DNA of 64,000 bases from Anaerolinea thermophila. Lineage in GTDB: Bacteria > Chloroflexota > Anaerolineae > Anaerolineales > Anaerolineaceae. Both the position numbers and the translations under genes were made by a program. The stretch spans positions 248,001 through 312,000 of the forward strand of contig NZ_DYHZ01000005.1 of the NCBI RefSeq assembly GCF_020723905.1, read 5' to 3'. Below the pieces are notes generated by a model. That model was not told the origin of the DNA, searched no databases, and worked only from the letters and a program-made list of their open reading frames with translations. Of this stretch, positions 20,495 through 35,923 are shown piece by piece. Position 1 is the first letter of the stretch. Each line of letters begins with the position of its first letter.

Positions 20495-21154
20495 ACTTAC
20501 ACTTTCCCGTAATGCCTTTACTCCAGCGGAAATGCCGTTCGGGTGCTTAAAAATGGCTGTAGCCGAAACAATGACCCTCGCTCCCGCCGAATACACCAGC
20601 GGCAGAGTGTTCTGGTCAATTCCACCATCTACCTGAATAGCGGCTTTGCTACGGGCATGTTCTACCATCGAATGCACTTTGCTGATTTTGGGAAGTACCT
20701 CTGGCAAAAAAGTCTGTCCAGAAAAGCCTGGATTTACTGTCATCACCAGAATCAAATCGACATGACTGACTACTTCTTCCAGCCAGGATGCAGGCGTTCC
20801 CGGGTTCAACACGACACCTGCTTCACAACCTGAAGCATGAATGGTTTGAATCGTGCGGTGAATGTGAGGACAGGTTTCAATCTGGACGGAAAGACGATGC
20901 GCTCCAGCCTCTGCATACCAGGGGATCATTCGGTCCGGATTCTCAACCATAAGATGAACATCAAGGGGCAGGTGGGTAATCTTCTTCAACGTAGATACAA
21001 TAAATGGCCCCATGGTCAGATTGGGGACAAAATGACCATCCATGACATCTACATGAATCTCATCGACGCCCGCGTCTTCAAGTTGTTTTATCTGATCCGC
21101 CAGATAGCGGAAATCTGCCGAAAGTACTGAAGCGCACAACCGGAAAACGTTCAC
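20492..21154 (-). CDS. rpe: Ribulose-phosphate 3-epimerase
   Basis: Interconverts ribulose 5-phosphate and xylulose 5-phosphate in the pentose phosphate pathway. A TIM barrel of about 220 residues. Signatures: ASVLSADF with the first-strand Ser, DVMDGHFVPN with metal-binding Asp, HLMVENP with metal-binding His, VNPGFSGQTF, and QVDGGI. I prefer GTG 21154, which overlaps the kinase stop as GTGA and has a GGGTGGG site upstream; a GTG nine bases earlier is possible. Translational coupling to the kinase gene is likely. Confidence 0.93.
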   Translation of the reverse strand: MNVFRLCASVLSADFRYLADQIKQLEDAGVDEIHVDVMDGHFVPNLTMGPFIVSTLKKITHLPLDVHLMVENPDRMIPWYAEAGAHRLSVQIETCPHIHRTIQTIHASGCEAGVVLNPGTPASWLEEVVSHVDLILVMTVNPGFSGQTFLPEVLPKISKVHSMVEHARSKAAIQVDGGIDQNTLPLVYSAGARVIVSATAIFKHPNGISAGVKALRESVS

Positions 21155-22251
21155 TTGACCCACCCAAGCACATTAAGGATATATGAATAAAATGGTAACA
21201 ACCCAACTCCAAGAACGAGAGCAATAATGGCGAGCACAATAATATCTGGTGTGAATAAGGTGGATGAAGAGGAGCGTAAAGCCTCAGATGGGGAAGGTTT
21301 TGATTTTGGTGGGGTATATTCTGCAGGGATGCTGGCTGATGATGGAGAAGCCTGTGGAGGGGTAGTATTGCTCCGTGGGGTTGTGCTTACAACCCGGTTT
21401 TGGGGGGCAGCAAATTCAAGCCCTTCAAGCATGCGTGCAAGAATATCTGCATTCCTAAACCTTTGCCGGGGGTCTTTAGACAGGAGTACGAGCAGAATTT
21501 CTTCCAATTTTTCAGGAATATCCCTATTCAGGTGCCTTGGTGGAATTGGACGAATATTTGGATCACGGTGCTGTCGGGCTAAATCGGCTGGGGTTTTTCC
21601 GGTGTATGGTAATTGCCCTGTAAGCATTTCATAAAAAACAACCCCTAACGAATACACATCACTGTATGGCATGGGGGGCTGCCCTGATGCCTGCTCTGGA
21701 GAGAAATATTGAGGAGAACCCCAAATTTCATCCGCCGTTTCATCTGGATGAATACTGGCGATGGCACGCGCAATACCAAAGTCTGTCACTTTCAGATGAC
21801 CATCTTTAGTAACAAGCATGTTGTGGGGTTTTACATCACAGTGAACTACTCTTGCACGGTGAGCATACCCCACACCTTTGGCAGCCTGGATCATTAATGG
21901 CAATGCTTCATGGAGTTCAAAGACACCTTTTTGTCGAATCAGATCTTTAAGGTTCTGCCCTTCAATGTATTCCATTACAATAAACAGGCGCCCGGAATCG
22001 TAACCAATATCATAAATGGTGACGATGTTTGGGTGTGAAAGGTTTGCCGCAGCGCGGGCTTCTCTGCGGAATTGCTCTTGAAAGGCTTGATTTCCTGAAT
22101 ATTTTGGGCGTAATAGTTTGATGGCAACCGTTCGTTCCAGCATGCGATCCCTGGCACGATAGACGACAGCCATACCGCCAGAGCCAATTGTCTCTTCAAG
22201 CACATAACGGTTTTGGAGCATTGGCGTGGTTGTTGAGTTTGCAGTTCCCAT
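21151..22251 (-). CDS. PknB-like Ser/Thr protein kinase, non-RD type, C-terminal membrane anchor
   Basis: A 366-residue Hanks-type kinase. Gly loop GSGGMAVVYRAR near residues 22-33, Lys in VAIKLLRP, catalytic loop HCDVKPHNML, DFGIAR and SPEQASG of the activation segment. The usual Arg before the catalytic Asp is Cys (HCD, not HRD), a non-RD kinase that may not depend on activation-loop phosphorylation. A Pro/Ser/Thr-rich linker (about 275-330) leads to one C-terminal transmembrane helix (IIVLAIIALVLGVGLLPFYS) with almost no extracellular tail, so it has no PASTA sensor domain. No partner PP2C lies next to it; the nearest is at 27.8 kb. Confidence 0.9.
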   Translation of the reverse strand: MGTANSTTTPMLQNRYVLEETIGSGGMAVVYRARDRMLERTVAIKLLRPKYSGNQAFQEQFRREARAAANLSHPNIVTIYDIGYDSGRLFIVMEYIEGQNLKDLIRQKGVFELHEALPLMIQAAKGVGYAHRARVVHCDVKPHNMLVTKDGHLKVTDFGIARAIASIHPDETADEIWGSPQYFSPEQASGQPPMPYSDVYSLGVVFYEMLTGQLPYTGKTPADLARQHRDPNIRPIPPRHLNRDIPEKLEEILLVLLSKDPRQRFRNADILARMLEGLEFAAPQNRVVSTTPRSNTTPPQASPSSASIPAEYTPPKSKPSPSEALRSSSSTLFTPDIIVLAIIALVLGVGLLPFYSYILNVLGWVK

Positions 22252-22348: not shown

Positions 22349-23446
22349 ATGGGATGGCTCGATGGTATGAGAAAAATCCTTGTTCTTTTTCAAAAACCAA
22401 TTAACTGGCTCATCGTTGCTTTACCTTTTGCGTTGTTTGCAGAAATATTTCATTGGGGAGATTTCTGGATTTTTATTCTCTCCTGTATTGGGATAGTGCC
22501 TCTGGCAGGTTTGATTGGCGAAGCAACTGAGTCTCTGGCAGTCTATACCGGTCCTAAAATTGGTGGGTTGTTGAACGCCACACTCGGCAACGCAGCGGAA
22601 TTGATTATTACCCTGGTAGCCATCCAGGCGGGTCTTATTGAACTGGTCAAAGCCTCCATTACAGGATCAATTCTGGGAAACCTGCTCCTTGTACTGGGCG
22701 CTTCAATTTTTCTGGGTGGACTCAGACACGGAGTACAATCCTTTGACCGTCGCCAAGCCTCAAACCATGCCATTCTTCTCATCATCGTTGTGATTGGGTT
22801 GGCAATCCCTTCTTTGTTCAGCCATTCGATTGGTCCTGATGACAGCATTCAGGTAGAGGCATTGAGTATAGGCGTTGCCATTGTTTTGATGATTCTGTAT
22901 GCTCTGGGACTGGTTTATACTCTGAAAACCGCAAAAAGCCCAATTTCATATCCGCCAACCGAAACTCATACTCAAAACCATGGTTTCACAAAAGTCGAAG
23001 CACTGGTATTGCTGACAATTTCTACACTCGGGGTTGTTTGGCTCTCCGAGATGCTGGTAGGAGCCGTTGAACATGTCGTGAGCAATATAGGAGTCTCAGA
23101 ATTTTTCCTGGGAATTATTCTTATCCCGTTAGTTGGAAATGTGGCGGAGCACCTTGTCGCCGTTCAGGTCGCCCTTAAAAATCAGATGGAGTTGAGTGTG
23201 GAAATTGCAGTCTCCTCCAGTTTGCAAATCGCTCTTTTTGTGGCACCTGTACTGGTTTTTGTCAGTCTCTTAATGGGAAATCCACTCACATTGATATTCA
23301 ATCAGTTTGAGTTGATTGCTCTTATTGCAGCGGTTGTTGTTGCCGCTCTCGTGTCTTCTGATGGAGAATCGAACTGGCTGGAAGGCGTGGCATTGATTGG
23401 CGTTTATCTCATTTTGGGTGTTGGATTCTTCTTGTTGCCTTCATAA
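22349..23446 (+). CDS. Calcium/proton exchanger (CaCA superfamily, CAX type)
   Basis: A 365-residue inner-membrane antiporter with about ten to eleven transmembrane helices. The two alpha repeats are obvious: GGLLNATLGNAAELIITLVAI in the first half and the matching IILIPLVGNVAEHLVAVQVA in the second, each with the conserved Glu. A Gly-Glu-rich loop separates the halves. It exports Ca2+ in exchange for H+. A second ATG at residue 7 is possible because no clear ribosome site precedes the first. The SH3-domain protein starts four bases after its stop. Confidence 0.92.
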   Translation: MGWLDGMRKILVLFQKPINWLIVALPFALFAEIFHWGDFWIFILSCIGIVPLAGLIGEATESLAVYTGPKIGGLLNATLGNAAELIITLVAIQAGLIELVKASITGSILGNLLLVLGASIFLGGLRHGVQSFDRRQASNHAILLIIVVIGLAIPSLFSHSIGPDDSIQVEALSIGVAIVLMILYALGLVYTLKTAKSPISYPPTETHTQNHGFTKVEALVLLTISTLGVVWLSEMLVGAVEHVVSNIGVSEFFLGIILIPLVGNVAEHLVAVQVALKNQMELSVEIAVSSSLQIALFVAPVLVFVSLLMGNPLTLIFNQFELIALIAAVVVAALVSSDGESNWLEGVALIGVYLILGVGFFLLPS

Positions 23447-23450
23447 CACC

Positions 23451-23948
23451 ATGAAACGGTTTTCAGGTTTTTCTGTTACTCCCTGGATGCTCATTGGCGC
23501 AATTGGTGTTGCCGGAATCCTGTCACTTTTCCTGGTTGCAGGGTTAAGTTTTCTTGCTCAACGATGGGCATCACATCAAAATACTTCACAGAAAGCCATA
23601 TTGACGGTCATTCCTGCTCCAACAGTGACTCCAACTCCACTATTTATAATTACAGAGACGCCAGAAATTGCCAGCGTAGAGATCAATGGAATCAGTATTG
23701 GGGTATATGTTCAAATCTCCGGTACCGGGGGAGACGGGTTAAGATTGCGCTCAGGACCAGGCAAGGAGTTTCCTCCCCTTTTCCTGGGTTATGAATCTGA
23801 AGTATTTGAGGTGAAAGACGGTCCGAAATTTTCGGACGGTATTACATGGTGGTATCTGGTTGCCCCATACGATCAAACTCGAAGTGGTTGGGCGGCATCA
23901 GATTATCTAAAACTGGTGACGGTAGAATTGGAGAAACCTTCCCAATGA
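23451..23948 (+). CDS. Membrane-anchored SH3-domain protein
   Basis: A 165-residue protein with one N-terminal transmembrane helix (residues about 10-33), a Pro/Thr-rich linker, and a bacterial SH3b domain from about residue 80 (GLRLRSGPGKEFPPLFLGYE and WWYLVAPYDQTRSGWAASDYL). SH3b domains outside the membrane often bind cell-wall peptides. I start at ATG 23451, after the exchanger stop; longer readings run into the exchanger gene. Its stop overlaps the DUF971 start as ATGA. Confidence 0.8.
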   Translation: MKRFSGFSVTPWMLIGAIGVAGILSLFLVAGLSFLAQRWASHQNTSQKAILTVIPAPTVTPTPLFIITETPEIASVEINGISIGVYVQISGTGGDGLRLRSGPGKEFPPLFLGYESEVFEVKDGPKFSDGITWWYLVAPYDQTRSGWAASDYLKLVTVELEKPSQ

Positions 23949-25701: not shown

Positions 25702-25856
25702 CGTAAACCCATCCAATGGTTAGGAAATTGAAAGGTCAAAAGGTAGCATTCTGACAATCTAAAATATATAATTGCTTAACAACACAGAGCATCAGGGTGG
25801 CGATTTCTCGGATTTATTGTAACGTTAAATTGGGTAAAGAATGGGAGAGGGATTCT

Positions 25857-27740
25857 GTGGAAACCCATCGAATAACACAAAGTTTTACACCAGGTTCAGA
25901 AGGACAGGATAAACAGCTTCAACCAGGAAGCATGTTAGCCAACCGATACCTCATTCAGGAAGTCGTAGGTATTGGTGGTATGGGGTCAGTTTATCGCGCT
26001 CGGGACCTTCACTTTCCAAATGTAGTGAAATTGGTCGCGGTCAAAGAGATGATTAACCAGGCAAGGGATAGCCAGATCCGCCAGACCATTGTACAAAACT
26101 TTGAACGAGAAGCAAATATTCTGGCTACCCTGAATCACCCTTCCATCCCAAGGATTTTTGATTACTTTACCCATGATGAACGTTCGTACCTTGTTCTGGA
26201 ATATATTAATGGGAAAGACCTGGAAGAAATCCTTTCTGAGTCCCCAGGACCTTTGCCGGAAGATCAGGTAGTTGCCTGGGCGATTGAATTGTGTGACGTA
26301 CTGGCTTACCTGCACAACCACAAACCAGAGCCGATCATCTTCCGGGATATGAAACCCTCCAATGTGATGGTCAACCAGGATGGGCATATTGTACTGATCG
26401 ACTTTGGTATTGCGAAGATGTTCCGTGCAGGTCAGAAAGGCACCATGATCGGTACAGAGGGTTATTCGCCACCTGAACAGTATCGTGGGGAAGCCACACC
26501 CCTGGCAGATATTTATGCTTTGGGAGCAACGCTTCATCACCTGCTCACCAAACGAGATCCGCGCATTGAAACACCATTCACATTCAACGAACGTCCTGTG
26601 CGGAAATTCAATCCTTCTGTCTCTCCGGAACTGGAAGCCATTATCAACACAGCCGTTCAATATAACCCTCAGGATCGTTTCCAGAGCGCTGAAGAGATGA
26701 AAGAAGCCCTGCTCAATGCTGCCCGAAAGACGGGTGTGCTTTCGCGTATTGCTACAAAGTCATTACTGATCTCAAGCGAGGAAAACACCAAACCTCTGTG
26801 GACATTTGAATGCGAGGATGAAATCCGGGGCGGTCCGGCATTTGAAAACGGTCTTATCTATGTGGGCTCGTATGATAATAACCTGTATGCGGTAAATGCT
26901 ACCGATGGAAAATTCGTGTGGAAATTTCCAACTGAGGGTGGAATTGTTACTCGCCCGGCTTTTGGGGAAGGGTTGGTTATTTTTGGTTCAGAAGATCATC
27001 GGATTTATGCATTGAACTCCAGAAGCGGTAAAATCGCCTGGACATATCCTACAGAAGGACCGGTCCGAGGATCTCCGAAGGTTGCAGAAGGACATGCGTT
27101 TGTGGGTTCTGATGATGGTTTTCTTTATGCCATCAATCTTACTTCCAGCAGGTTGGTCTGGAAATATGATACCGGTGGACCAGTACGCTCTACCCCGTTT
27201 ATTGCGAATGATTTGATTTTCTTCGGGTCTGAAACCGGAGATTTATTCTGCATGGATTTCCGTGGCGCTGTGAAGTGGCGCTTTAAAGCCAAGCGGGCCA
27301 TTTATTCTTCTCCGCTTGTGGTTAAAGGCTCGCTCTTCTTCACATCTCTGGATTCGATTTTGTACTCGATTGATGCTCGCACGGGGTGGGCAATCTGGCG
27401 TTTCCGCATGGGAAAAGGGTCGGTATCTTCCCCGTGCAATGTGGAAAGTTACATCATTGTAGGTTCCGCAGATGGATTTATTTACTGCGTAGATGGTGGC
27501 ACGTCAAAAGAGATCTGGCGATTTAAGACCGATCATCAGGTCAGCGGTTCTCCATTAGTTTATCGAGACTCTATTTATTGCGGTGCCGCAGATGGAAATC
27601 TTTATTGTCTGGAGTATCGCACAGGAAGGTTGCGTTGGAAATTCAGCACAGGAGGGGCAATCACCAGTGCGCCAATTGTGTATAATGATATCTTGTACGT
27701 GGGTTCTGCCGATCATATTCTATATGCGCTCATTCCATAA
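25857..27740 (+). CDS. Ser/Thr protein kinase fused to a PQQ-type beta-propeller
   Basis: Phosphorylates proteins; first gene of a six-gene signalling operon. With the GTG at 25857 (GAGAGG six bases upstream) it has 627 residues; an upstream GTG at 25797 has no ribosome site. Residues about 30-300 form a Hanks kinase: GIGGMGSVYRARDL, VAVKEMI, IIFRDMKPSNVMV (Phe for the usual His, Arg and Asp kept), DFGIAKMF and GYSPPEQY. From about 320 to the end there are some seven PQQ-like blades (GSDDGFLYAINLTSSRLVWK, GSADGFIYCVDGGTSKEIWR). No transmembrane helix separates the two, so the propeller appears cytoplasmic, unlike the usual membrane kinase with an outside sensor. Confidence 0.92.
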   Translation: METHRITQSFTPGSEGQDKQLQPGSMLANRYLIQEVVGIGGMGSVYRARDLHFPNVVKLVAVKEMINQARDSQIRQTIVQNFEREANILATLNHPSIPRIFDYFTHDERSYLVLEYINGKDLEEILSESPGPLPEDQVVAWAIELCDVLAYLHNHKPEPIIFRDMKPSNVMVNQDGHIVLIDFGIAKMFRAGQKGTMIGTEGYSPPEQYRGEATPLADIYALGATLHHLLTKRDPRIETPFTFNERPVRKFNPSVSPELEAIINTAVQYNPQDRFQSAEEMKEALLNAARKTGVLSRIATKSLLISSEENTKPLWTFECEDEIRGGPAFENGLIYVGSYDNNLYAVNATDGKFVWKFPTEGGIVTRPAFGEGLVIFGSEDHRIYALNSRSGKIAWTYPTEGPVRGSPKVAEGHAFVGSDDGFLYAINLTSSRLVWKYDTGGPVRSTPFIANDLIFFGSETGDLFCMDFRGAVKWRFKAKRAIYSSPLVVKGSLFFTSLDSILYSIDARTGWAIWRFRMGKGSVSSPCNVESYIIVGSADGFIYCVDGGTSKEIWRFKTDHQVSGSPLVYRDSIYCGAADGNLYCLEYRTGRLRWKFSTGGAITSAPIVYNDILYVGSADHILYALIP

Positions 27741-27761: not shown

Positions 27762-28670
27762 GTGCTGGAATTTTTGAAGAAATTTATTGGCAAGAAACCC
27801 CAACCAGCGACATCAACGCCTGTGATTGGGATCGAAACGGCTCCATTATCCGAAGAGCAATTGCAATCTGTATTACCTGAAACGGTACACGTTTCGCCTC
27901 CACAATATCAGATTGGAATGGGCTTATCGGTAGGCAGACAACGTGAGGTCAACGAAGATACCATATTTGCTCTGTCTGCAACCATTGCTGATGGTGTAAG
28001 GGATCTTCCTTTTGGTATTTTTGTATTGGCTGATGGAATGGGGGGGCATGCCAGCGGAGAGGTTGCCAGTGCCGCCGCTGCAAAAACGATGGCGCAGTTT
28101 GTTTTGGATAAAATTTCGTCCTGGATGCTATCGGTTGAGCAGGAAGGTGCGGGGGAAAGCATTCAGGAAATTATGGAAAGCGGCGTCCGTGAGGCACATC
28201 GCGCGGTATTAAAAGCCGCGCCCGGGGGAGGGACTACCTTGACCGCCGTACTTGCTCTGGGAGAACAAATTACGATTGCCCATGTGGGTGATAGCCGGGT
28301 GTACTTTATTTACCCTGATGGGCGCGTACAGATAAAAACTCAAGATCATTCTCTGGTACACAGATTGAAAGAATTGGGGCAAATCACTGACAAAGAAGCC
28401 TCCACCCATCCACAAAGAAATATCCTTTATCGGGCATTAGGTCAAACCGAACCCTTCCGCCCTGATATTATTACCTGTGAATTTCCTCATCCGGGGACAC
28501 TTTTACTTTGCAGTGATGGTCTCTGGGGTGTTTTGCCAGAAGAAAGCATTGCTCATATTGTCAATACTGCTAAAAGTCCTTCTCAAGCCTGTCAAACCCT
28601 GGTTGAATCGGCGAATCTTGCAGGAGGACCAGACAACATAAGCGTGATTCTTGCACAGTATCTCTCTTAG
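27762..28670 (+). CDS. PP2C-type Ser/Thr phosphatase
   Basis: A 302-residue PPM/PP2C phosphatase, the natural opponent of the kinase 21 bases upstream. Metal-binding and core motifs: VNEDTIFALS, FVLADGMGGHASGEVAS, GGGTTLTAVLA, VAHVGDSRVYF-type strand (IAHVGDSRVYF) and LLCSDGLWG with the final GGPDNISVI. The N-terminal 45 residues are a short extension. The GTG start has GGGAGGA five bases upstream. It is cytoplasmic, without a membrane segment. Confidence 0.92.
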   Translation: MLEFLKKFIGKKPQPATSTPVIGIETAPLSEEQLQSVLPETVHVSPPQYQIGMGLSVGRQREVNEDTIFALSATIADGVRDLPFGIFVLADGMGGHASGEVASAAAAKTMAQFVLDKISSWMLSVEQEGAGESIQEIMESGVREAHRAVLKAAPGGGTTLTAVLALGEQITIAHVGDSRVYFIYPDGRVQIKTQDHSLVHRLKELGQITDKEASTHPQRNILYRALGQTEPFRPDIITCEFPHPGTLLLCSDGLWGVLPEESIAHIVNTAKSPSQACQTLVESANLAGGPDNISVILAQYLS

Positions 28671-28682
28671 CGGAGTAAAGCC

Positions 28683-30143
28683 TTGAGAGATTATTATTCT
28701 ATTTTGGGGGTCTCAATTGATGCAACGCCGGAAGAAATCCGGGCGGCTTATTTTGATTTAGCCAAAAGGAATCATCCAGATGTTACGGATGATCCCAAGG
28801 CACATGATCGGTTTGTAGAAATTCAGGAAGCCTACGAAGTGCTTTCGAATCCCTCTCGGAAAGCAAAGTACGATGCTTCGTTGCCAGAGGAGATAAAAAA
28901 AGGTCCGGCTGTAACCTTAAACGTCCGCACCAGTCGTATGGTCATTCCGAAAATCCAGGAACCTCAATTGTTTTACGCGCTGGTGGATTTAATCTGCACT
29001 GCTGAATATGATGTAAAAGAAGCGCCTCCCTTCCATATTTGCCTTGTTCTGGATCGTTCTACTTCAATGCAAGGCGCAAGAATGGACATGGTAAAGTCCA
29101 GTGCCATTAATTTGCTTAAACAATTCCGTAAGCAGGATCTGATTTCTGTTGTAGCGTTTAGCGACAGGGCTGAAGTCATCATTCCACCCACTCGTGTGAC
29201 CGACCTTGCAAAAGATGACCACCGAATCAGCATGTTACAGGTGGGGGGAGGAACGGAAATTTATCAGGGTTTGCAACTGGGTATTGAACAGCTCCGCTCT
29301 ATTGATCCTCGTTTTATGCGCCAGTTGATTTTGCTGACGGATGGGCACACTTATGGTGATGATGAAGCCTGCATTCAACTGGCTGAAGAAGCCGCACAGG
29401 ACGGCATTCAAATTAACACCATGGGAATAGGCCATGAGTGGAATGACGATTTGCTGGATAAAATAGCCACCATCAGTGGAGCCAATTCGATTTATGTGAC
29501 TTCTCCCAAGGATCTCAATAAATTCTTTGAGCAAAAATTGCAGTTGTTGAGCGATACCTATGCCCGGGGATTGTCTCTGGAGTTCACGCTAGGAGAAGGG
29601 GTGGAACTGAAATACGCTTTTCGTCTCCATCCAGAGACAACTCCTTTACCGGCCGCCAATCCCCTTCCGTTAGGCTCGCTGATGTATCATAAGAGTATGA
29701 GTTTACTCTTTGAATTTGTCATTCACCCAATTACTGCGGAAACTTCCTCCCTCTCAGTTATGACCGGAAAAATTAAAATGGAACTTCCATCCGTCCAATC
29801 ACTACGCGCTCGTTTGCCCATTCAGATCAAGCGTGTGGTGAGCGAAAATCCGGACCCGGAATCACCTCCTCCTGCTTTAATCGAAGCCCTGGGAAAATTA
29901 ACCCTTTATCGCATGCAGGAAAAAATTCAAAAAGAGGTAGAGGAAGGACAAATTGATAAAGCCACAAGGAGACTTCATTACCTGGCAACTCAATTGCTTT
30001 CTCAAGGAGACCGCGAACTGGCACATGCTGTCCTTTTAGAAGCGGAACACTTACAACAAAGTCGAACTTTTAGCCGCGAGGGGGATAAAAGAATCAAATA
30101 TGGAACGCGAGCACTCCTTTTACCTTCAGGGATGGAGCATTAG
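28683..30143 (+). CDS. DnaJ J-domain fused to a von Willebrand factor A domain
   Basis: A 486-residue fusion. Residues 3-66 are a J-domain with intact HPD at 31-33 and the final helix SNPSRKAKYDASL, so it can stimulate an Hsp70. Residues about 115-300 form a vWA domain with the MIDAS motif DRSTS at 124-128, the GGGTEIYQGL threonine loop and LLTDGHTYGDD. The C-terminal third is predicted mixed with a helical tail. The start is TTG with GGAG upstream. It follows the phosphatase by 12 bases. Kinase plus PP2C plus vWA resembles the TerY-P triad; the J-domain is an addition I do not recall as standard. Function not established. Confidence 0.88.
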   Translation: MRDYYSILGVSIDATPEEIRAAYFDLAKRNHPDVTDDPKAHDRFVEIQEAYEVLSNPSRKAKYDASLPEEIKKGPAVTLNVRTSRMVIPKIQEPQLFYALVDLICTAEYDVKEAPPFHICLVLDRSTSMQGARMDMVKSSAINLLKQFRKQDLISVVAFSDRAEVIIPPTRVTDLAKDDHRISMLQVGGGTEIYQGLQLGIEQLRSIDPRFMRQLILLTDGHTYGDDEACIQLAEEAAQDGIQINTMGIGHEWNDDLLDKIATISGANSIYVTSPKDLNKFFEQKLQLLSDTYARGLSLEFTLGEGVELKYAFRLHPETTPLPAANPLPLGSLMYHKSMSLLFEFVIHPITAETSSLSVMTGKIKMELPSVQSLRARLPIQIKRVVSENPDPESPPPALIEALGKLTLYRMQEKIQKEVEEGQIDKATRRLHYLATQLLSQGDRELAHAVLLEAEHLQQSRTFSREGDKRIKYGTRALLLPSGMEH

Positions 30144-30146
30144 TCT

Positions 30147-30668
30147 ATGATCAAGTGTCCAAATTGCCACCACGAAGAACTTCCAGGCTCTCTCTATTGC
30201 AGTGAGTGTGGTACTCAACTGGTTGTTTCTCAAACGACCACAACCCAGCATATTCAACGAAATCCCTCCGATGTTCTGGTGGTTACTCCTCCTTCACAAA
30301 TGCCACCCAAACCGGGCATTCATCCAGATACTGAAGCGGAATTCAAGGTTTTTCTCAGTTTTGTTGACAGTGGGAAGGTGATTGAGTTGTCTGGACAAAC
30401 AGAATATACCCTCGGGAGAACATCAGAAGGTCAACCTATTCTTCCTGATATTGATCTTTCCCCTTTTGACGCTTATTCGAAAGGAGTATCGCGTCTTCAT
30501 GCTGCTTTGAAAATACAAAGCCATCGTGTGGTGATTACCGATCTGGGATCTTCAAATGGTACCAGAGTAAATGGTCAAAAGATCGTTCCTCATGTGGATT
30601 ATCCGCTAAACCATGGGGATATGATATCTCTGGGGAAATTCGCTTTGCAAATTTTGATCAAAAAATAG
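30147..30668 (+). CDS. Zinc-ribbon plus FHA-domain protein
   Basis: A 173-residue protein. Residues 3-21 hold a zinc ribbon (CPNCHH then CSECG), and residues about 75-170 an FHA phosphothreonine-binding domain with YTLGRTSEG, GVSRLHAAL and LGSSNGTRVNGQ. It likely docks onto proteins phosphorylated by the kinase of this operon. It starts three bases after the J-vWA gene, so co-translation is likely. It is soluble. Confidence 0.9.
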   Translation: MIKCPNCHHEELPGSLYCSECGTQLVVSQTTTTQHIQRNPSDVLVVTPPSQMPPKPGIHPDTEAEFKVFLSFVDSGKVIELSGQTEYTLGRTSEGQPILPDIDLSPFDAYSKGVSRLHAALKIQSHRVVITDLGSSNGTRVNGQKIVPHVDYPLNHGDMISLGKFALQILIKK

Positions 30669-30928: not shown

Positions 30929-31663
30929 GTGCCAGACCAATTTAAAAATCGAAGCATTCTTGTCGTAGATGATGAAGAAAGAATGGTGCGGTTTATCCGC
31001 CTGAATCTGGAGCATGATGGCTTTCAGGTCATTTCTGCATACCGTGGATATGAGGCATTAGAAAAAGTTCGAACCGAAATGCCCGATCTGGTATTACTGG
31101 ATGTCATGCTCCCTGATTTAGATGGTTTTGAGGTTCTCCGGCTGATTCGGGAAAGCAGTAATACCCCTGTGATCATGCTGACCGCAAAAGGAGAAGAAGA
31201 TGATCGTGTCCGCGGACTTGAACTGGGAGCGGATGATTATGTTACCAAACCTTTTAGTCCACGCGAACTGGTCAGCAGGGTCAGAGCAGTATTACGTAGA
31301 GTAGAAGCGGCCAGCCTGACAGCAAAAAATGAAATCATAGAGGTGGATGATCGTTTGAAAATAGACTTCGGCCGTCGTGAAGTATGGGTTGAAGGAAAAA
31401 CGGTGAAACTCAGACCAACAGAATATCGCCTTCTTTACCATCTGGTGCAAAATGCCGGCTGGGTGATGACCTATGAACAGTTATTGACCAAGGTTTGGGG
31501 GTATGAATACCGCGATGAAGAACATTATGTGCGGCTATATATCAACTACCTGAGACAAAAAATTGAGAAAGACCCCTCTAATCCAAAATACATTCTGACC
31601 GAAAGAGGGGTAGGGTATCGCTTTGTGGATTTCCGTAAAAATACCGAAGCCGCACAAGGTTAA
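30929..31663 (+). CDS. OmpR/PhoB-family response regulator
   Basis: A 244-residue regulator: receiver domain (residues about 9-120, LVVDDEERM acidic pair, phospho-acceptor Asp in [15 protein letters not shown] and KPFSP) and a winged-helix DNA-binding domain (about 145-240, [32 protein letters not shown]). It ends the signalling operon, 11 bases after the small gene. No histidine kinase is nearby, so its phosphodonor is unknown; control by the Ser/Thr kinase is a possibility. Confidence 0.9.
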
Positions 31664-34534: not shown

Positions 34535-35923
34535 GTGAAACCTCAGCCCCAGGTCAGCATCATATTCCTGTATTCAGATCATCTGAATAAGCCCGCTTTT
34601 GAAAGCATTCGTCAAGAATTAGAGACTGACCGGCGTGCAATTCTTGAAAAACTTTCAGAGAAGTATTCCATCTGTTCTTATTGGGTTGTGTCTACCAATC
34701 AAGATCTTGCCCGTTTTGTGAGTTCATTCCAGTCTGAAGAAAGTGACATTGTCATCTTGCTATACCAGACACAGGTTGAAGAACTGCATGTGCAAGAACT
34801 CGTAGATGCTGTAGGTAATAAACCGCTTGTGGCATGGTGTTATCTTCCGTGGAAACGGGCGCCTAAACCGCTCTCTTACGAGGAATACCTCCGTGCTTCT
34901 GGAGCGGCTTCGATGTTTGTGGCATTTCATGAATTTCGTAAGCGATTTGTTCCTTATCTTCCCGTCTTTGGTGCAATTCAGGATACAGATTTATTACGAA
35001 AATTAGACTCTTTTGTACAGTCGGCAAGAGTCAGAAGCCAGTTACGCCATGCAAAAATCGCTGTCTTAGAACACGCTGGCATCCATACTGAAGAAATTTT
35101 CCAAACCATTCAATCTCTTGGAGTCAACCTGCAACGGATCCCTCTTTCTGAATACCAGGATGAAGTGGTAAAGGTTTCGAGTAAGGACATTGCTGAGTAT
35201 ATTCAGCAATTGAAAGAATATGTCCCAGATTTCATGGTGACAATTCCTACGTTACAACATGGAGCCAAATTATCCGTTGCATTAAACCGTCTGGCTTTGC
35301 AAAAGAACCTGGATGTTTTTGCCTTACCAGCGCATTCACCGGAAATTCGCCGGGTATTGAAAATTTGCCCGGGGCTTCCACCAGAATGGGGAGATAATCC
35401 TCACACCATTTACTTAACCACACTGGATCCTGGTGCAATCCTGGCGAGTTTATTGCTTCGTCTTGTGACCGGGCAAGTTGGTTTTTTGTTCAAAGCATGG
35501 TTTTGGGATAAAGCCAGAAACATCCTTGTGGGTGGACATACCGGACTTCAATACCCCAACATCAGCGCTCCTAAACTTTCTCTGGTCTGTGGAGATTATT
35601 ACTGTAACCGCGCTGATCCTGATGGGGGAGTTCAGTTAGAATTTATTGCAAGATCAGGAAGAGTAACCTTACTTCAGATGGAGCACCGTCCTGAGGGGTG
35701 GAAAGCCTTAATCACGTCTGGAATGTGTTTGGAAAGTGAGTTATGGGTAGAGGGACTACCACAGGCAGTAATCCGTCCTGACTGCACTATTGACCATTAT
35801 CTGGAAGTGGTTTCTGCGAAGGGGAGTGGAAGGAACTGGGTTATGGTTTATGGAAGCATCATGGAGGATTTGATTGCCCTCTTTGAACTGATGCAAATGC
35901 CGTTTGATATTATCCAGCAATAA
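34535..35923 (+). CDS. L-fucose/L-arabinose isomerase-fold protein
   Basis: A 462-residue cytoplasmic protein resembling the FucI/AraA superfamily in layout: an N-terminal alternating fold (IVILLYQTQVEELHVQEL, KPLVAWCYLP), a linker, a second domain (RHAKIAVLEHAGIHTEEIF) and a C-terminal block with KAWFWDKARNILVGGHTGLQ, like the metal-binding region of these isomerases. Whether the metal residues are complete is uncertain. The GTG start has GTGGAGG upstream. It follows the lipoprotein by 35 bases. A sugar isomerase or related enzyme is inferred, substrate unknown. Confidence 0.6.
   Translation: MKPQPQVSIIFLYSDHLNKPAFESIRQELETDRRAILEKLSEKYSICSYWVVSTNQDLARFVSSFQSEESDIVILLYQTQVEELHVQELVDAVGNKPLVAWCYLPWKRAPKPLSYEEYLRASGAASMFVAFHEFRKRFVPYLPVFGAIQDTDLLRKLDSFVQSARVRSQLRHAKIAVLEHAGIHTEEIFQTIQSLGVNLQRIPLSEYQDEVVKVSSKDIAEYIQQLKEYVPDFMVTIPTLQHGAKLSVALNRLALQKNLDVFALPAHSPEIRRVLKICPGLPPEWGDNPHTIYLTTLDPGAILASLLLRLVTGQVGFLFKAWFWDKARNILVGGHTGLQYPNISAPKLSLVCGDYYCNRADPDGGVQLEFIARSGRVTLLQMEHRPEGWKALITSGMCLESELWVEGLPQAVIRPDCTIDHYLEVVSAKGSGRNWVMVYGSIMEDLIALFELMQMPFDIIQQ

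Follow-up and report, generated by a model that had tools for sequence, protein, structure and literature searches.

A J-domain fused to an ArnB-like von Willebrand A protein in a kinase, phosphatase and FHA operon of Anaerolinea thermophila and other Chloroflexota

The DNA analysed here, referred to as the window, is a stretch of 64,000 nucleotides from Anaerolinea thermophila (contig NZ_DYHZ01000005.1, positions 248,001 to 312,000). It contains four closely packed genes, separated by gaps of 21, 12 and 3 bases, encoding a kinase, a PP2C phosphatase, a protein in which a J-domain is joined to a von Willebrand A (vWA) domain, and an FHA protein. These genes, the parts of the J-vWA gene and the regulator gene that follows are listed below.

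25797-27740, + strand: Hanks-type Ser/Thr kinase carrying a beta-propeller of the PQQ type (Pfam Pkinase 5.2e-43, PQQ_2 3.8e-50)
27762-28670, + strand: PP2C-type phosphatase (Pfam PP2C_2 4.1e-13; NCBIfam Stp1 207.9 bits, short of the model's 230-bit cut-off)
28683-30143, + strand: J-vWA gene, an open reading frame of 486 amino acids with a TTG start (Pfam, open orthologous loci, AlphaFold model)
28689-28874, + strand: J-domain (residues 3-64), with HPD at 28773-28781 (Pfam DnaJ E 1.3e-21; model helices)
28911-28997, + strand: first strands of a beta-sandwich (residues 77-105) (secondary structure of the model; fold match to 8s05_A starting at residue 76)
29031-29552, + strand: vWA domain (residues 117-290), with MIDAS residues D124, S126, S128, T191 and D220 (Pfam VWA E 2.2e-18)
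29556-29843, + strand: second set of beta-sandwich strands (residues 292-387) (model; fold matches 4fx5 and 8s05)
29871-30113, + strand: C-terminal four-helix bundle (residues 397-477) (model; placed like the regulatory helical bundle of ArnB)
30105-30116, + strand: T475-R-A-L478, candidate FHA-read phosphosite, proposed from conservation near the C-terminus
30147-30668, + strand: zinc-ribbon plus FHA protein of ArnA-like layout (Pfam FHA 1.9e-16; zinc-ribbon models below their cut-offs)
30929-31663, + strand: OmpR-type response regulator, the usual next gene (Pfam Response_reg and Trans_reg_C)

Elsewhere in the window, a second Ser/Thr kinase gene (21151-22251, - strand) and a gene for an SH3-domain protein (23397-23948) are found again close to the operon of several relatives, and an open frame of 462 residues at 34535-35923 gave no Pfam match at E 0.01.

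An earlier note, made from the letters of this DNA, had described the third gene as a J-domain directly fused to a vWA domain, with an HPD motif at residues 31-33 and a MIDAS of the form DRSTS at residues 124-128. Both domains were recovered by Pfam above the cut-offs (DnaJ at residues 3-64, VWA at residues 119-284), both motifs lie intact at those residues, and the fusion is conserved at full length in relatives. HPD is invariant in alignments of 29 and of 80 rows, and D124, S126, S128, T191 and D220, which make up a complete MIDAS, are invariant in 29/29 and 80/80 rows, the window being included in both. An AlphaFold model obtained with 80 aligned sequences (pLDDT 88, pTM 0.83) places helices at residues 4-8, 16-30, 38-55 and 57-66 and shows a J-domain at the N-terminus; a predicted N-terminus of another kind, which the note had named as a refutation, is thus not what is seen. 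The two-domain description holds for the J and vWA domains and was incomplete, because four parts are seen in the model: the J-domain, a split beta-sandwich, the vWA domain inserted into it and the C-terminal bundle, the sandwich and the bundle having been missed.

The distribution of this protein was followed in 61 genomes, its own and those of 60 relatives, searched at E 1e-3. Every one of them gave some match at this threshold, many of them to J only or to vWA only. The J-vWA protein itself is present in 39 of the 61, at full length in 38 and as a fragment at a contig end in G003, and the full-length proteins of the 37 other genomes show 35-71% identity to that of the window. A J-less version occurs in G017, G037 and G051. 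In G013, the four complete vWA genes are J-less paralogues, and a tail fragment lies beside an FHA gene at a contig start (C30), the kinase being at a contig end. The frame is open from J to C-terminus in 28 of 29 orthologous loci, L019 having one stop near the last codons, and in 79 of 80 loci of a larger set, where the exception, L073, is this same locus. This larger set holds the best 80 of 561 confirmed loci, all of them Chloroflexota by title (the genome search was likewise centred on Chloroflexota), at 43-71% identity, and includes an orthologous locus of Anaerolinea thermolimosa (L044) at 71%. HPD, DxSxSM and TDGxTYGD are each found in 79 of the 79 readable rows of these best 80 of 561 loci, the count for TDGxTYGD not being independent because it is the search pattern itself. 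In a draw of 301 Chloroflexota genomes, 105 gave a match at 1e-30, at least 30 with the J-domain (27 matches starting at profile position 1-4, plus L167, L168 and L169 from reading of the loci), and J-bearing proteins also occur outside the class of the window (L133, L134, L167-L169). The earlier note had allowed that the frame might be two genes joined by a sequence error. With full-length orthologues in 37 other genomes and 79 of the best 80 of 561 loci open, the probability of such an error is negligible, and a chance joining is likewise ruled out.

The surroundings of the gene are constant as well. In the best 80 of 561 loci, the PP2C gene lies upstream and the zinc-ribbon-FHA gene downstream of J-vWA in all 80; the kinase-propeller gene is found further upstream in 79, the contig of the remaining one (L086) starting inside the PP2C gene, and an OmpR-type regulator follows within 1500 bases in 76. 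In these same 80 loci, the kinase conserves its G-loop (74), AVK (72), RDxKPxN (76) and DFG (77) motifs, and the phosphatase DG[MV]GG (79) and GDSR (80), another PP2C pattern being matched in only one. The FHA protein keeps SRxH and the zinc-ribbon cysteines in all 80. A further FHA pattern was matched by 52 of the 80, and has to be considered too strict since S135, N137, G138, T139 and N142 are invariant in 56 aligned FHA rows, as are C4, C7, C18 and C21 of the zinc ribbon and R91, S115, R116 and H118, which together with N137 are the phospho-threonine-binding residues of the FHA domain. As to the regulator, it shows about 70-85% identity to that of the window, above most of the operon products.

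The joint encoding of a vWA protein, a PP2C and a Ser/Thr kinase recalls the TerY-P triad, described in passages of PMC11090510 and PMC4978471 as a TerY-like vWA protein, a PP2C and a kinase with a zinc ribbon, tied to restriction systems; furthermore, 13 of the 80 members give a weak match to the vWA-TerF-like model of Pfam. Nevertheless, that the operon is a stress or defence triad of this kind is highly improbable. The core gene order is constant in the best 80 of 561 loci, whose flanks were typed against the window genes only, and among 316 plasmid records matched by tblastn none covers 80% of the J-vWA protein. Moreover, here an FHA protein is added and the zinc ribbon lies on it instead of on the kinase, which carries a propeller, and the vWA protein bears a J-domain.

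A relation between the vWA and FHA proteins can also be seen across genomes. When a genome was scored as vWA-positive if it held the J-vWA protein or a near J-less version, weaker matches (G022, G038) being scored as absent, the FHA gene was found in 42 of 43 vWA-positive genomes vs 2 of 18 vWA-negative ones. The kinase is present in 50 of the 61 genomes, and among these the FHA gene accompanies 42 of 43 vWA-positive vs 1 of 7 vWA-negative genomes (Fisher 3e-6, kinship ignored). Kinase and PP2C genes also stand without adjoining vWA and FHA genes, in L149, L150, L153, L154 and L156 (L151 and L152 are cut off by the end of their contigs). Taking into account this tight co-occurrence, and the persistence of kinase and PP2C without both partners, the vWA and FHA proteins look like one unit.

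The nature of this unit is suggested by the fold of the J-vWA model. Its best match among solved structures is 4fx5 (Z 34.3, 389 residues), a Catenulispora acidiphila vWA protein with no J-domain in the entry title or in the match. ArnB in the ArnAB complex (8s05_A) follows with Z 30.1 over 370 residues and rmsd 4.2, end residues 76-481 of the model lying on 3-382 of 8s05_A, and an ArnB paralogue (5a8j) with Z 26.0; in the three cases the match runs from the sandwich to the bundle. ITIH1 (6fpy, Z 26.3) also spans residues 76-470 of the model, with a larger rmsd. Most other fold matches listed cover about the vWA domain alone, and lower in the list, with lower fold scores, come Sec23 and Sec24, eukaryotic coat proteins which are much longer and are not known to carry a J-domain. 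The COPII core that these form has a vWA domain, a beta-sandwich and a helical core, and is compared with ArnAB in part of PMC12852372; 4fx5, in turn, is named ArnB-like in passages of PMC6509490 and PMC12852372.

At the level of sequence, a profile comparison with 8s05_A over the vWA domain gave 4e-20, and one with human ITIH4 vWA was no worse (2e-20). When E-values as high as 5 were allowed, the Pfam model ArnB_C matched 3 of the 80 members, the best at 0.05 and none above its cut-off, and when used to search the genome of the window it did not match the J-vWA gene. The FHA domain does not appear specially close to that of ArnA: in the fold search OdhI, FhaA and others rank higher and ArnA (5a8i) is 36th of the 50 matches listed, all of these E-values lying within about thirtyfold, and phmmer against ArnA gave E 0.1. 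What is shared is the architecture, a beta-sandwich split by a vWA domain and then a helical bundle, as in ArnB of the archaellum regulatory network of Sulfolobus acidocaldarius, together with the MIDAS and a partner gene combining zinc ribbon and FHA. A Hanks kinase and a Ser/Thr phosphatase act on the archaeal pair, according to passages of PMC12852372 and PMC6509490, and here kinase and PP2C genes adjoin the J-vWA and FHA genes. The two systems differ in that the present one is bacterial and has an N-terminal J-domain, in that its phosphatase is a PP2C and not a PP2A, and in that its kinase carries a beta-propeller and sits in the operon.

Passages of PMC12852372 and PMC6509490 describe how ArnC phosphorylates threonines in the C-terminal bundle of ArnB, several of them with R or K as the next residue, and how the FHA domain of ArnA then binds. 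In the window protein, T475-R476 lies in the last helix of the bundle. Neither T475 nor L478 varies across 80 rows (in the 29-row alignment T475 is invariant and L478 is kept in at least 90%), T[RK]x[LIV] occurs in 109 of 111 J-bearing proteins within 45 residues of the C-terminus, and a looser pattern in 25 of 26 J-less ones within 60. T475 would be the best candidate phosphosite and may be a counterpart of T371-T375 of ArnB; its conservation could also be structural.

The J-domain itself is well preserved, and with its HPD it agrees with what is expected of a class C J-domain protein. HPD, the motif that serves Hsp70 stimulation, is kept in 108 of 111 distinct J-bearing proteins of chosen loci, and mean pairwise identity in the 80 rows is 0.60 for J vs 0.56 for vWA. 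Three proteins have lost HPD and kept the vWA domain and the tail (L136 6324-7898, L141 1336-3072, L143 6438-7928). In J-domains helix II usually carries a basic pair, for contact with Hsp70, which is lacking here and makes this helix II atypical. Position 24, in this helix, is F in 68 of 112 proteins of the family and position 25 is acidic in 74 of 112, at places that would touch DnaK; the DnaJ and CbpA-like J-domains of the same genome have R, then N or K there. The net charge of helix II is 0 in the window protein and 0.7 on average in the family, DnaJ and the CbpA-like protein of this genome having 1 and 2.

The genome encodes two full-length DnaKs and two other J-domains, so potential partners for the J-domain exist. 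Neither full-length DnaK gene lies on the contig of the window; the second is at G000 C13:89590-91350, outside the window, and the other is near a J-domain gene on C5. Two full-length DnaKs are found in 24 of 39 genomes with J-vWA vs 7 of 22 without it (p 0.03, kinship ignored). The second DnaK as a dedicated partner was rejected, since this association is weak, kinship is not removed from it, and dnaK paralogues are common in Chloroflexi anyway, at the highest rate according to a passage of PMC11019930.

It could be argued that the J-domain serves for docking or has a structural role and no longer drives DnaK, the protein being simply an ArnB-like scaffold. The hydrophobic and acidic residues at positions 24-25, the loss of HPD in L136, L141 and L143 and the existence of relatives with the same operon and no J-domain would agree with it, but HPD is retained in the other 108 proteins of the chosen loci and the identity of the J-domain is as high as that of the vWA domain, so that we regard this explanation as rather unlikely. 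The J-domain probably works in the recruitment of DnaK, judging from these sequence features.

The relatives just mentioned inform about the origin of the fusion. Elsewhere in Chloroflexota, the order kinase, PP2C, vWA, FHA is found with a vWA protein that lacks J; its open frame mostly has about 410-470 residues, and its vWA domain starts near residue 40-85. Some of these J-less loci are rearranged or expanded (L127, L135, L159, L163-L166). L127 and L159 belong to a single contig (G013 C251), where an expanded cluster combines four vWA genes without J with several genes each for FHA proteins, PP2C and kinases. No J-domain apart from vWA was found in frames of at least 50 residues when loci L005-L033, L044-L143 and L149-L159 were searched at E 1e-3 with the J profile of the family, nor among the matches listed in further loci of the phylum, including L167-L169. 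The lack of a separate J frame near the J-less vWA genes indicates an added module rather than a split gene. Thus, on gene layout, the J-domain appears as a module added to a switch, a J-less vWA protein holding a like operon position elsewhere in the phylum.

A tree was made from the region between a point just before the vWA domain and the tail, with 93 rows (67 of the 111 distinct J-bearing proteins and all 26 J-less ones). On it, presence and absence of J need 4 changes vs 22.9 in shuffles, at least 3 of them forced by the starred branches, and three J-less proteins lie inside the J-bearing clade. The simplest reading would be one old gain of J and later losses (G037/G051, G017), on a tree in which the placement of the root and of L133 is weak and two long branches, L126 (G017) and L140, come together. 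Since three J-bearing proteins have lost HPD and three J-less ones sit inside the J-bearing clade, it follows that the J-domain can be dispensed with.

The J-less versions also bear on the proposal that the protein is mainly a DnaK co-chaperone, whose vWA domain and beta-sandwich hold unfolded clients, with kinase, phosphatase and FHA protein only regulating it under stress. The intact J-domain and an operon encoding possible regulators speak for it, as does a passage of PMC7159879 where vWA proteins are co-chaperones of MoxR AAA+ proteins. However, the J-less versions keep the kinase-PP2C-vWA-FHA operon, so the switch needs no J-domain, and there is no DnaJ-type C-terminal client domain among the Pfam matches of the window protein; we consider the proposal unlikely.

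Taking into account the ArnB-type build, the adjoining gene of ArnA layout and the J-less versions in the same operon position, the core job of the protein is probably that of a phospho-switch. Our main reading, to which we give a probability of about 45% for the whole mechanism, is that J-vWA acts as the scaffold of an ArnA-ArnB-like phosphorylation switch, coupled by its J-domain to DnaK. Thus, the operon kinase would phosphorylate threonines of the C-terminal bundle, T475 being the best candidate, and PP2C would remove these phosphates. The FHA protein would use its FHA domain to bind the phosphorylated bundle and its zinc ribbon to bind the resting form, while the MIDAS of the vWA domain may hold a further partner. 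The J-domain would bring DnaK-ATP to the switch complex, and the signal state would set the time at which DnaK works on the partner bound there or on the switch complex. A more specific version, in which the kinase-phosphatase-FHA circuit gates Hsp70, phosphorylation of the bundle timing the presentation of DnaK, by the J-domain, to whatever partner the vWA domain holds, can be proposed tentatively. The earlier suggestion that the J-domain is aimed at partners of the signalling operon is compatible with the fusion and with its setting; what changes is the emphasis, the J-domain being probably a DnaK coupling added to the switch.

As regards novelty, none of the matches listed in the open-licence full-text literature was a paper that deals with J-vWA fusions in an operon of kinase, PP2C and FHA genes. 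In the passages retrieved from the closest of those listed, PMC7159879 and PMC11090510, the sets described consist of kinase, PP2C and vWA, and a DnaJ-FNIII fusion or Hsp70 homologues appear separately. Among the GAP1-N2 systems (Kaur et al. 2020, PMC7159879), as presented in such passages, one theme links a kinase to PP2C and stand-alone vWA genes, and another combines a DnaJ domain and genes for HSP70 and GrpE; unlike here, that domain is part of an FNIII-repeat protein, in a theme other than that of vWA. The parts are known, and their combination is a variant of ArnAB-like and TerY-P-like switch modules in which J is joined to vWA.

This joining brings together three subjects that have mostly been studied apart: Hanks kinases of bacteria, FHA-vWA switches, for which the control of motility in Sulfolobus is the main example, and Hsp70 targeting. 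The existence of versions with and without J in like operons leaves the role of the J-domain open to direct comparison. Because a J-domain and an ArnB-like body adjoin a kinase, a phosphatase and a reader of phospho-threonine, the locus suggests a signal-controlled chaperone in many Chloroflexota genomes. If this is true, it would be, within the open-licence literature searched, the first case of a switch of the ArnAB type being linked with a chaperone, and Chloroflexota of the Anaerolineae type would have in common a DnaK system that is switched by signals and specific for its client.
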